DNA from: Brumimicrobium glaciale
Lineage (GTDB): Bacteria > Bacteroidota > Bacteroidia > Flavobacteriales_D > Crocinitomicaceae
NCBI RefSeq assembly: GCF_004152935.1
Contig: NZ_SETE01000002.1
Span: forward strand, 310,001-374,000
Length of the DNA stretch: 64,000 nt
Direction: 5' to 3'
The notes under the pieces are model-generated. The model saw only the letters and a list, made by a program, of their open reading frames with translations, did not search any database and had not been told where the DNA came from. Below are positions 17,327 through 42,404 of the stretch, in pieces (positions within the stretch are counted from its first letter, which is position 1; each line of letters begins with the position of its first letter). The translations under genes were made by a program, and so were the position numbers.

Positions 17327-17413
17327 GTTGAATGTATATCGGATATCACTCTCTAGACTGATTAATTGAACCTTATTTATTTTTTTGAACAGCGAAGGCC
17401 AATAATTATTTAC

Positions 17414-17665
17414 TTGAATTGCAACCATGTGTCGCCAATTCTGTGGCTTATAGAGGCATATCAATAGTGGTTTTAATAACACTGCACCACTCTGTGGCGG
17501 TGATAAATATTAAAACAAATTACGAATAAGTTGAATCTTAATCATCCTTTTTTAAAAAATATAATAGTTCTCCTATTGCTGGAGATTTTTAGTTGGTGAC
17601 GATAAGTTTTCTTTTTAATAAATTATGGAATTATAGATAACGACTTATCTTGGTAACCAAATTAT
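17414..17665. mobile_element. partial copy of a MITE-like element
   Basis: About 250 bases align with the right half of the element at 41170-41572. Shared features are CCACTCTGTGGC modules, an ATAATAGTT block, and a 27-base identical end at 17638-17664 matching 41552-41578. The right terminal repeat is present. No left terminal repeat could be found, so this copy appears 5'-truncated. It ends four bases before the stop codon of the next minus-strand gene. Apart from this the 17272-17668 spacer holds no gene. Confidence 0.65.
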
Positions 17666-38867: not shown

Positions 38868-40298
38868 ATGAGCCAATTGCATGAACAAAAATGGGAAGCT
38901 TGTCTGAAAGTAATTAAAGACATCATTCCATTACAAGCTTTTAAAACTTGGTTTTCACCGATTGTTCCCGTGAAGTTAGATGGAGATGTATTAACAATTC
39001 AAGTTCCCTCTCATTTCTTTTACGAATGGTTAGAAGAGCATTACATTGGATTACTGAAAAAGGTAATCAAAAAGGAATTGGGTGCCAATGGAAGATTAGA
39101 ATACAGTATTATTATGGAACGTAATACACCAAATTCTACTCCTTACACAGTGAAAATTCCAACATCAGGAGGTAGTTCTTTAAGAAATGCACCTGTTTCT
39201 GTTCCTTTAAAGGTTGGCGAAGATCAAATTCGTAATCCTTTCGTTATTCCAGGGTTAAAGAAAATTGAAGTTGAATCTAACTTAAATGCCGCTTATACTT
39301 TTGACAATTTCGTTGAAGGAGATTGTAACCGTTTGGCAAGATCTGCTGGTTATGCAGTAGCAAACAAACCAGGTGGAACAGCTTTTAATCCATTATTGAT
39401 ATATGGTGGAGTTGGTCTGGGTAAAACGCATTTGGCGAACGCAATTGGAATTGGTATTAAAGAACAGTTTCCGAACAAAACAGTTTTATATGTAAGTTCT
39501 GAAAAATTCGTTCACCAATTTATTGACTCTATAAAGAACAATACTTCAAATGATTTTGTACACTTCTATCAAATGATGGATGTATTAATTATTGATGATG
39601 TTCAATTCTTCTCTGGAAAAGAAAAAACGCAAGATGTATTTTTCCACATCTTTAATCACTTGCACCAAAACGGTAAGCAAATCATTTTAACGTCTGACAA
39701 GGCACCTGTTGATATCCAAGGAATGGAGCAACGTTTGTTGAGCAGAATGAAATGGGGATTATCTGCAGATTTACAAGCGCCAGAATTAGAAACGCGTATT
39801 GCTATTCTTGAAAAGAAAATGTACAGCAATGGTATAGAACTTTCGAAAGAAGTTGTTGAATACTTAGCTTACAGCATAAATACTAACGTTCGTGAAATCG
39901 AAGGAGCATTAAACTCATTGATTGCACAAGCATCGTTAAACAAAAAAGCGATTACTCTAGATTTAGCGAAGCAAATGATTGACAAATTCGTGAAGAACAT
40001 CACCCGTGAAGTTTCTATCGAATACATTCAGAAAGTTGTTTGTGATTACTTTGACATTGAAATCGAAATCTTGAAATCTAAAACTAGAAAGAGAGAAATC
40101 GTTCAAGCCCGTCAAATTGCTATGTTCTTCTCTAAGAAAATGACAAAGTCTTCATTGGCTAATATTGGAGCACATTGTGGAGGAAAAGATCACGCAACTG
40201 TATTGCACGCTTGTAGAACGGTTAATAACCTATCAGAAACAGACAAGCAATTCAAAGCTTATTTGAATGATTTAGAAAAGAAATTATCGATGCAGTAA
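38868..40298 (+). CDS. dnaA: chromosomal replication initiator protein DnaA
   Basis: 476 residues with all four domains. Domain I starts KWEACLKVIKDIIPLQAFKTWFSP. A short linker follows, then AAA+ domain III with YTFDNFVEGDCNRLA, Walker A GGVGLGKTHLANA, Walker B VLIIDDVQFFSGKEKTQ and the LLSRMKWGL box. Domain IV ends with the DNA-binding helix-turn-helix and the signature CGGKDHATVLHACR. DnaA binds DnaA boxes at oriC and opens the origin. A strong bidirectional terminator follows. recF lies about 31 kb away, so the classical dnaA-dnaN-recF cluster is dispersed. Confidence 0.98.
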   Translation: MSQLHEQKWEACLKVIKDIIPLQAFKTWFSPIVPVKLDGDVLTIQVPSHFFYEWLEEHYIGLLKKVIKKELGANGRLEYSIIMERNTPNSTPYTVKIPTSGGSSLRNAPVSVPLKVGEDQIRNPFVIPGLKKIEVESNLNAAYTFDNFVEGDCNRLARSAGYAVANKPGGTAFNPLLIYGGVGLGKTHLANAIGIGIKEQFPNKTVLYVSSEKFVHQFIDSIKNNTSNDFVHFYQMMDVLIIDDVQFFSGKEKTQDVFFHIFNHLHQNGKQIILTSDKAPVDIQGMEQRLLSRMKWGLSADLQAPELETRIAILEKKMYSNGIELSKEVVEYLAYSINTNVREIEGALNSLIAQASLNKKAITLDLAKQMIDKFVKNITREVSIEYIQKVVCDYFDIEIEILKSKTRKREIVQARQIAMFFSKKMTKSSLANIGAHCGGKDHATVLHACRTVNNLSETDKQFKAYLNDLEKKLSMQ

Positions 40299-40379: not shown

Positions 40380-40859
40380 TTACTCTTCATAAAGTGAAAG
40401 TAAATACTCTTTTACAATTGCAGCTTCTTCAATAGTTTTAAGCGCATTTTTTCTTCCGTGTTGAATGTAAACTAAAACACCAAGATTTTCTTTTTCGTCC
40501 ATCTCTGAAAGTTTCAACTCTTTATCTTTTGTGTTTTTAAATGTCAAAAATTGAAATTGATAAGTTTCTTTTTTTACATGAAGTCCTTCGTGCAATCTTA
40601 TAGTAACAGGATCATCTATTCCAGGAATTTGAATTTTCTTAATTTTCCAGATATAGCGATGCTCCTTAAAATCTGAAAAAGTTAAAAGTAAAGACTCTTT
40701 TAATCTTGTTGATTCCTCTCCATACATCTGAAAATTATATCCTCCATAATCTTCTCCTCCTCGCGATTGTGTAATAGTCAAAGCATTTGGAGTGTGAAAT
40801 TGTGCAAACGAGAATTCGGAAAAATTTAATATACCAAGAATTAAAAGTAGCTTTTTCAT
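40380..40859 (-). CDS. secreted hypothetical protein
   Basis: 159 residues with a signal peptide (MKKLLLILGILNFSEFSFAQ). The mature part is mixed alpha/beta (ESTRLKESLLLTFSDFKEHRYIWKIKKIQIPGIDD) with no recognisable motif. It is convergent with dnaA, sharing its terminator. A conserved function cannot be suggested. Confidence 0.65.
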   Translation of the reverse strand: MKKLLLILGILNFSEFSFAQFHTPNALTITQSRGGEDYGGYNFQMYGEESTRLKESLLLTFSDFKEHRYIWKIKKIQIPGIDDPVTIRLHEGLHVKKETYQFQFLTFKNTKDKELKLSEMDEKENLGVLVYIQHGRKNALKTIEEAAIVKEYLLSLYEE

Positions 40860-40954
40860 GCGTAATGTTTTTGATTTATTTAAGTTTTCGTTAAATATAC
40901 ACTTTTAACTACTTAACATCTATCACGCTAAGATATTTAACAATTGATTTTTTT

Positions 40955-41014
40955 GGATCTGATCTTCAATCACTTAATCCAGTTGTGTTTTTAGCGATGA
41001 ATTGAGTTCTAAAA
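40955..41014. pseudogene. 60-bp relic of a paralogous lipoprotein gene
   Basis: This stretch aligns without gaps to 41980-42039, inside the lipoprotein gene at 41928-42404, with about 49 of 60 positions identical. The flanking sequence does not continue the match. It is therefore a decayed fragment of a tandem copy, now cut off from the intact gene by a MITE-like element. Confidence 0.55.
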
Positions 41015-41080
41015 ATATGTCTTTACTGCAAACTCAAATTGGTTAATAAAAATCTATTTTTAAGGCTCTACCTGAAATAC

Positions 41081-41089
41081 TGTGGATAA
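41081..41089 (-). promoter_or_regulatory. perfect DnaA-box sequence
   Basis: TGTGGATAA is the exact reverse complement of the consensus box TTATCCACA. It is the only exact copy noticed in the intergenic sequence read. It lies in a 1068-bp gene-free region 800 bases downstream of dnaA. A single box does not prove an origin. Confidence 0.4.
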
Positions 41090-41169
41090 TCAATAGTAAT
41101 CCTTCGAAAAATTAATAGTTCTACTACGAATTTAACTGTAACCTACACGAGTTGTATTTTAAAGTATTG

Positions 41170-41572
41170 GGTTACCAAGATAGGTCGTTAATTGAAGAAT
41201 GTTTTTAATATGCCTTAACTTCATCTTAGCCCACGGAGTGGGTGACATGTTAATAAAAAAACGAATAACGTTTTTTAAAAAACCACAGAGTGGTGACACG
41301 TTATAAATACATCGCCAAATTCTCTTAAACAAAATAGAGTTTTCGCAAAATTGAAACACATTCACATGCCGCCACTCTGTGGCTTTATGCTATTACTGGG
41401 TAGCTAAAGCTACTAACATTTCACCACTCCTGTGGCGATTATACATAAGCCGAATCATAATCATCCATTTCAGAAAAGTATAATAGTTTTTCTGTTACTC
41501 GAGATAATTAGGAGTGATAATAAGTTTTTATAATGAATATGGGATTACAGTTAACGACTTATCTTGGTAACC
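41170..41572. mobile_element. 403-bp MITE-like element with 22-bp terminal inverted repeats
   Basis: The ends 41170-41191 and 41551-41572 are inverted copies with 21 of 22 positions matching (GGTTACCAAGATA...). Inside are four CCAC/GTGG palindromic modules, two in each orientation (near 41239, 41281, 41371 and 41423). The sequence TTAAAGTATT occurs at 41159-41168 and 41576-41585, just outside the ends, and could be a target duplication, although it is not exactly flush. No transposase is encoded. A 68-codon frame inside (41159-41365, minus) reads through the repeats and is probably not a gene. A partial copy lies at 17414-17665. Confidence 0.75.
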
Positions 41573-41585
41573 AAATTAAAGTATT

Positions 41586-41927
41586 TATCAAAATCATAAT
41601 TTCATTTTTACAGGTAAGCCTATGGTGGTCTGTATTTCAGTTGATTAGCCCATAAGTTGGTAGGCTACTAACAATAACCACTTAAATAACAGGAACTTAT
41701 CAAATTAAGCGAAATGTAATTAAATAGAAAGTTTCCATTTAAATAAAAGTAGAACCAAATTAACATTCGTTTAGCTTCAATTAAAGCCATAGATTTTAAA
41801 TCTACTCACACAAAATCATCTAGAACTATTTTTAAGCTCAAAATTTTATCATTTGTGGCTCAAAAAATTGCATATTTGAACTTGATTCTAATATAAAATG
41901 AGCTACTAATGAATTTTTTCTAAAATA
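41586..41927. other. AT-rich spacer, no gene seen
   Basis: No coding frame or strong signal was found between the MITE-like element and the stop of the lipoprotein gene. Confidence 0.5.
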
Positions 41928-42404
41928 TTATTCATTTAAATCTTCTCTCACTCTAATATATTTCACAGTAGAAGTTTTCGGATCTGAGCTACCAGCACTT
42001 AATCCAATTGTGTTTTCATCAATGAATTGAACTTTAAAATCTTTAGATGTGTCTAAACCATAAACAGAAAATAAAGCACCTCCTATTTTCTTTTCGGTTA
42101 ACTTAAATTCATAGTTGGAGATCTTGCTAATTTCAGAAATCCATGTATCCTCTTGCTCAGCAAATAGTTGAACGAATTTGTTTTCGTTTAGAGAAACGAT
42201 TTTTCCTTTCAATTCTCCATTTTTATTTTTATCGATTTGAATTATAACACCATCAAACATAGGCCGACCTTGCAATTCCCAATTTCCTTCAAATTTATCG
42301 ATGCTCACTTTCTTAAAGTCATCTCCATCACAGCTGGTAAATAGAAATGCAAGAAGTATTATAGTAGAGATAATTGCAGTCTTTGATCTTTTAATTGTAT
42401 TCAT
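41928..42404 (-). CDS. lipoprotein of unknown function
   Basis: 158 residues with a lipoprotein signal and lipobox AFLFTSC (residues 19-25). The mature part is beta-rich: FEGNWELQGRPMFDGVIIQID, GELKGKIVSLN, EFKLTEKKIGGALFSVYGLD and TVKYIRVRE. This pattern resembles small lipocalin-like domains. No specific family is certain. A decayed piece of a second copy lies at 40955-41014, so the gene was once duplicated. Confidence 0.7.
   Translation of the reverse strand: MNTIKRSKTAIISTIILLAFLFTSCDGDDFKKVSIDKFEGNWELQGRPMFDGVIIQIDKNKNGELKGKIVSLNENKFVQLFAEQEDTWISEISKISNYEFKLTEKKIGGALFSVYGLDTSKDFKVQFIDENTIGLSAGSSDPKTSTVKYIRVREDLNE

Follow-up and report, generated by a model that had tools for sequence, protein, structure and literature searches.

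The window, the whole 64-kb stretch of DNA analysed here, carries two MITEs, one inserted in the other. The initial annotation had described a single MITE-like element here and missed this nesting. Some 0.8 kb separates the two MITEs from a dnaA homologue at 38868–40295 (Bac_DnaA, DnaA_N and Bac_DnaA_C), and the ORFs at 40383–40859 and 41931–42404 have no Pfam match. The features of the nested MITEs are as follows, in order along the window.

41056–41063, no strand: left copy of the host MITE's 8-bp target duplication, ATTTTTAA
41064–41827, plus strand: outer host MITE with ends GGCTCTACCTGAAATACTGTGGATAATCA ... ACTCACACAAAATCATCTAGAACT, 347 bp once the inner element and one duplication copy are subtracted
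41159–41166, no strand: left copy of the inner element's 8-bp target duplication, TTAAAGTA
41167–41575, plus strand: inner IS1595-type MITE, 409 bp
41167–41192, plus strand: left terminal inverted repeat, TTGGGTTACCAAGATAGGTCGTTAAT, matched by the right repeat at 23/26 positions
41230–41293, plus strand: left REP doublet, CCCACGGAGTGGG then TGACATGTTAATA, an AT-rich hairpin, and CCACAGAGTGG then TGACACG
41372–41435, minus strand: right REP doublet, in mirrored orientation, reading CCACTCTGTGG and CCACTCCTGTGG on the plus strand
41550–41575, minus strand: right terminal inverted repeat, TTTGGTTACCAAGATAAGTCGTTAAC on the minus strand
41576–41583, no strand: right copy of the inner element's 8-bp target duplication, TTAAAGTA
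41828–41835, no strand: right copy of the host MITE's 8-bp target duplication, ATTTTTAA

Borders, copies and insertion site of the inner MITE

The inner element adds a new member to the IS1595-type MITEs, with ends that start TTGGG on the left and TTTGG on the right. Its inverted termini are as first described: 41170–41191 and 41551–41572 agree at 21/22 positions, and an inverted pair of this quality at 40–600 bp spacing occurs only once in the window and in 0/20 first-order Markov replicas of it. The 27-base block noted at the right end is also real, with 17638–17664 identical to 41552–41578. The limits of the element had been set at 41170–41572, and flank alignment of paired copies corrects them to 41167–41575. 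The flanking duplication was rightly recognized but was given as 10 bp, whereas it measures 8 bp (TTAAAGTA); on the left the two extra bases already belong to the element, of which they are the first two, and on the right they are host sequence. When boundary and length were scanned together over 15 elements of this genome, flank identity peaked at 0.908 for 8 bp and the 41167–41575 boundary. Over all 34 elements (the same 15 and 19 from relatives, that is, 35 listed pairs minus one overlapping another), the 8-bp duplication and its 6-bp core were level (0.879 and 0.887, respectively). The 8-bp duplications are exact in 9/15 own-genome pairs and have at most one mismatch in 13/15, the other two being poor with 3 and 4 mismatches; when relatives' elements are included, 17/34 are exact and 27/34 have at most one mismatch. 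Random re-pairing of right flanks yields on average 1.2 pairs with at most one mismatch in the own-genome set of 15 and 1.7 in the set of 34. The duplication of the window copy is exact. Among ORFs of at least 100 aa, none overlaps 41167–41575.

Further copies of the element, a sister-species autonomous element and empty sites (below) all support the original proposal of a non-autonomous inverted-repeat element. A search of the 4.27-Mb genome (12 contigs) returned at least 27 matches among the best 40 of 83 candidates scored. These include a full-length copy on contig C9 (97% identity) and a near-full-length copy on C1 (70%), both of which had escaped notice. The partial copy reported 24 kb away exists, but it is larger than stated, with 134 query bases aligning at 79%:

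17357–17664, plus strand: left-truncated copy that retains spacer together with the REP doublet and terminal repeat of the right side; its left border is approximate and was placed by eye against the C6 copy

At up to two mismatches, inner-type ends occur 34 times in this genome (17 per strand) and a reversed control 0 times; 12/59 genomes, including this one, have at least one such end. In the sister species G002, the elements at loci L073 and L077 (934 and 925 bp) have the same IS1595-type ends as well as REP-like hairpins, but they contain additional internal DNA and only short ORFs.

The host MITE provides the empty sites. When both flanks were joined and searched against the genus, at least 28 uninterrupted host copies among the best 40 of 111 candidates scored spanned the junction; these empty sites are paralogous and lie in the same genome. 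Both host ends are present at 24/25 host MITE loci (L272 was dropped), and the target duplications of these 24 are exact in 12 cases, have one mismatch in 6 and are poor, with more mismatches, in 6. In three host copies (in the window, at C1:143 kb and at C2:104 kb) an IS1595-type MITE interrupts the sequence at the same TTAAAGTA, and we take these three insertions as independent because the inserted MITEs differ in interior or orientation. In G002 a fourth IS1595-type MITE lies at the corresponding base of a host copy that lacks its right half. That IS1595-type MITEs have repeatedly hit one and the same base in a repeat family offers a natural assay of target choice. As the source of the outer MITE itself we considered ISL3; the ISL3 transposase (PF01610) has 5 matches in 3/10 genomes of the genus, none with outer-MITE ends.

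An IS1595 relative in a sister species

On contig C2 of the sister species G007, two matching ends bound a 1023-bp element with the target duplication TAAAGGAA. It encodes a 307-aa ORF that scores above the cut-offs for PF12762 (DDE_Tnp_IS1595), PF12760 (IS1595 zinc ribbon) and NCBIfam NF033547 (IS1595), and its terminus is identical to the left end of the window element at 23/24 aligned bases. The initial annotation had suggested looking for a transposase flanked by the same termini; this sister species has one, and a search of the own genome with the G007 protein found no IS1595 transposase. The same query has matches in 13/36 genomes, most of them weak, with the own genome among those without. 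One relative, in another genus, has a transposase 58% identical to it and ends with 6 and 2 mismatches. A transposase match in G005 (40%, one stop) was rejected as a partner, such ends being absent nearby.

The 15 paired copies look orphaned because no such transposase was found in the genome. Since the own genome showed no IS1595 relative, the mover is deduced from the sister species and would be an IS1595 transposase acting in trans. According to the available text of PMC8101967, IS1595 members usually make 8-bp duplications and have an N-terminal zinc finger, one group excepted. The window element has in common with non-autonomous IS1595 derivatives its ends, an 8-bp duplication and a counterpart in a sister species whose protein has the zinc ribbon and the DDE_Tnp_IS1595 domain. 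It differs from them in carrying a REP-like unit and in residing in a genome with no detected transposase.

Tagged hairpins and Y1 transposase genes

The interior of the element contains the four mirrored CCAC/GTGG modules first described (41230–41242, 41283–41293, 41372–41382 and 41424–41435). They form a quartet of two mirrored hairpin doublets, and most of the hairpins are followed by a GACA-type tag; hairpin spacing within doublets is 49–53 bp in this genome and its relatives. Folded as single-stranded DNA, the quartet has a z of −6.2, and 0/200 shuffles are as good. The CCAC-type hairpin is present in few copies, with 25 genome matches at up to one mismatch. These palindromic modules belong to a second system, linked to Y1 (HUH) transposases. 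At C3:346.2–348.5 kb, an array of window-type REP doublets surrounds the gene for a 149-aa Y1 transposase, and a second Y1 gene on C4, 57% identical, lies among arrayed copies of a hairpin of its own kind (GTTCC-AGC-GGAAC, then GACATATTAATAG). Hairpins that differ in stem but resemble these in the bases after it also flank the Y1 gene in four relatives, one example being ATCCC-GAA-GGGAT-GACATATTA. In G003, REP doublets are present with no IS1595-type ends nearby.

We scored the association with a tag of G, A/G, A/C/T and A directly following a hairpin whose 5-bp stem is perfect and contains at least 3 G/C and whose loop has 3 nt, a definition made by eye from loci partly included in the 30-locus set. 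At those 30 loci, some of them used for the definition, 83/288 hairpins are tagged, and two wrong tags score 2 and 2. At 23 loci kept out of the definition the figures are 43/220 tagged and 0 and 0 for the wrong tags, while beyond 2.5 kb at the same loci they are 0/55 and 1 and 2. The window has 2/18 tagged hairpins, both in the inner element, and one wrong tag there also scores 2. Dinucleotide shuffles of 56 loci (one counted twice, as L147 and L188) predict 1.5 tagged hairpins, and 140 are seen. The distribution is uneven: at least one perfect tagged hairpin occurs at 15/30 and 13/23 loci, and three loci (L209, L224 and L227) supply 31/43 of those in the 23-locus set. Neither locus of two further own-genome Y1 genes, at C2:599 kb and C2:668 kb, has a tagged hairpin. 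These genes (L191, C2:598500–600500; L192, C2:667500–669500) lie with other repeats, such as CCCCACGCTCTGAAGGAGCAACTCACCTC at L192. At L209, in Winogradskyella epiphytica, the Y1 gene is 53% identical to the C3 gene and has a stop in the frame read; the locus has 15 tagged hairpins, at least two of them GCCAC-AGA-GTGGC, the stem and loop of the window element, and at least one more with that stem.

The C3 Y1 protein scores 76.1 bits for NF033573 (IS200/IS605; cut-off 55) and 30.7 bits, below the cut-off of 80, for NF047646 (REP-transposase, RAYT). A Y---Q--HH motif is present in 52/56 rows (51/55 distinct genes) and absent in L141, where a contig end cuts the gene, L146, L153 and L230; the HuH motif is DH[IV]H in 23/56 rows, with DHVH in the C4 protein and NHLH in the C3 protein. 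Own-genome matches to the C3 protein are 100, 57, 37, 35 and 20% identical. This spread is unlike that of a spreading IS, and there is no set of near-identical copies.

Judged by these protein features, the genes are likely members of TnpA Y1 subclass 1.2, for which the accessible part of PMC6006769 gives Y---Q--HH, low copy number and a distribution mainly in Cyanobacteria and Bacteroidetes, with REP listed as "no". Common to both are the Y---Q--HH and W-Q motifs, a Bacteroidetes-type host and low copy number, and the 149 aa of the C3 protein compare with a subclass median of 148 in the same portion of that paper. The differences are the C3 motif NHLH, where the consulted table has DH[IV]H, and the tagged hairpins at about half of loci, where it has "no" for REP. 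No report of REPs for subclass 1.2 turned up in the literature searched, mostly papers outside subscription.

The arrangement also resembles REP/RAYT systems (REPtrons, REPINs and BIMEs), which likewise have mirrored tagged hairpins around a Y1 gene and copies elsewhere in the genome; hairpins that both flank the Y1 gene and recur elsewhere are found for the C3 and C4 genes. It differs from them in its tag, a GACA-type sequence that follows the hairpin (on the opposite strand, TGTC ahead of it) and not GTAG, in the few copies of the CCAC type, and in a Y1 protein that scores as IS200/IS605 and not as the RAYT class. PMC11194056 applies the name RayT to Chryseobacterium transposases, and the excerpt at hand describes no hairpins. 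The Y1 protein may recognize the tagged REP hairpins.

REP-like units as probable MITE cargo

The inner element is one of several MITEs with such an interior. The window host copy is the REP-less 347-bp form, found also at C3:128 kb, which lacks the hairpin/palindrome block. In the common form of that family, of about 523 bp, two C4-type hairpins in inverted orientation enclose a long palindrome whose core is AATTGCATGCAATT. The two forms differ by one clean block (10 of 19 aligned sequences read), and in the sister species G002 host MITE copies already carry part of the REP unit. The AATTGCATGCAATT core occurs at 29 places in the own genome and in 0/9 other genomes of the genus searched. A further MITE family, whose ends resemble GGTTCTACCACTATTTTAATGG, is represented by five copies that likewise contain two REPs in inverted orientation together with a long palindrome of the AATTGCATGCAATT kind:

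C1:499500–500500: GGTTCTACCACTATTTTAATGG-end MITE (L286)
C1:554350–555350: GGTTCTACCACTATTTTAATGG-end MITE (L287)
C2:468500–469500: GGTTCTACCACTATTTTAATGG-end MITE (L288)
C3:42500–43500: GGTTCTACCACTATTTTAATGG-end MITE (L289)
C7:147000–148000: GGTTCTACCACTATTTTAATGG-end MITE (L290)

By eye, their target duplications include two exact 8-bp cases (TAAGAATT and AATTTTAT), one with 1 mismatch and two that are poor. L291 and L298 have REP units without GGTTCTACCACTATTTTAATGG-type ends in the stretch read. Counted by their ends, at least three MITE families of this genome thus appear to carry REP-like units as cargo. A second IS1595-type MITE form carries TGTCATTCC palindromes that resemble CGTC-tagged REPs, a resemblance only, with stem and loop compared informally.

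We read the window locus as a non-autonomous IS1595-family MITE that inserted into a second MITE and carries a Y1-linked REP-like unit, with a probability of about 0.8. What this reading builds on can be seen directly in the DNA: the ends and target duplications of both MITEs, the uninterrupted host copies, the autonomous element of G007, the REP unit common to MITE and array, and tagged hairpins at Y1 loci. Acting in trans, an IS1595 transposase would move the element by its ends, inserting it with an 8-bp duplication into an AT-rich site of a pre-existing host MITE copy, a site that recurs throughout the host family. The REP quartet would be passenger DNA of Y1 origin, travelling as cargo, and may have been placed in the MITE earlier by Y1-mediated single-strand recombination, although MITEs may instead have seeded the arrays. 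An inner-family MITE without the quartet would show this capture; all-against-all comparison, with the window-element matches read, gave no clear candidate.

Alternatively, the element could be an ordinary IS1595-derived MITE whose palindromes are its own, the C3 array being a tandem amplification of an end-less MITE in which the Y1 gene lies by chance. The array and the MITE do have spacer in common besides the hairpins, and some 6 kb away from the array there is a copy whose left end has decayed (5 mismatches). Such an origin would leave unexplained that hairpins of other stems, similarly tagged, flank Y1 genes in other genomes, that the second own-genome Y1 gene is surrounded by an array built from another hairpin, and that the REP doublets of G003 lack such ends nearby, and we regard it as unlikely. 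Chance insertion of the C3 Y1 gene as an IS200 element is itself unlikely given the second array, on C4, and the other loci.

Much less probable again is a structured RNA or regulatory element that is not mobile: the strong fold of the quartet would suit one, whereas Rfam has no match at gathering threshold in 40900–41930 and the copies are dispersed, with target duplications and empty sites. We find it scarcely credible that the whole unit is a Y1-mobilized, IS200/IS605-like element with incidental terminal inverted repeats. The mirrored doublets and full Y1 gene of the C3 array would fit this, but the unit has 8-bp duplications and end-to-end inverted repeats in common with the IS1595 element, and IS200/IS605 elements are not known to make a target duplication.

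The accessible text of PMC3733652 reports CGTC-tagged REPs in Bacteroidetes, where CGTC is often changed to TGTC, and knows no dedicated transposase for them. The nearest precedent for a cargo MITE of the kind we favor comes from the same paper: the REP dimers of some species sit inside longer palindromes, and Neisseria CGTC-1 elements are interleaved with other repeats; the hosts of the dimers are not described in that text as MITEs with target duplications. Our literature search, mostly of papers outside subscription, uncovered no MITE with target duplications that was reported to contain REP units. To judge from this search, the Y1-linked REP-like unit inside a MITE and the tagged hairpins at subclass-1.2-type genes both appear to be new.

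A broader proposal, which we hold to be somewhat more doubtful than probable, is that subclass 1.2 represents an unrecognized TGTC/GACA-tagged REP system of Bacteroidota and neighbours that spreads largely as cargo of DDE-type MITEs. If so, this would be a general route for REP dispersal without Y1 transposition, and it might also account for REPs without a dedicated transposase. REP dispersal is poorly understood, according to the part of PMC8266576 consulted, and REP-like units in MITEs of three end families with duplications suggest a testable alternative to Y1-driven dispersal. They would also provide a candidate DNA partner for a Y1 subclass described without one in the accessible text of PMC6006769.

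Beside the host MITE, the stretch 40920–41040 is similar to the 3′ part, at low coordinates, of the ORF on the minus strand at 41928–42404, the two having cacttaatcca.ttgtgttttt in common by eye, and is perhaps the remnant of a paralogous gene.
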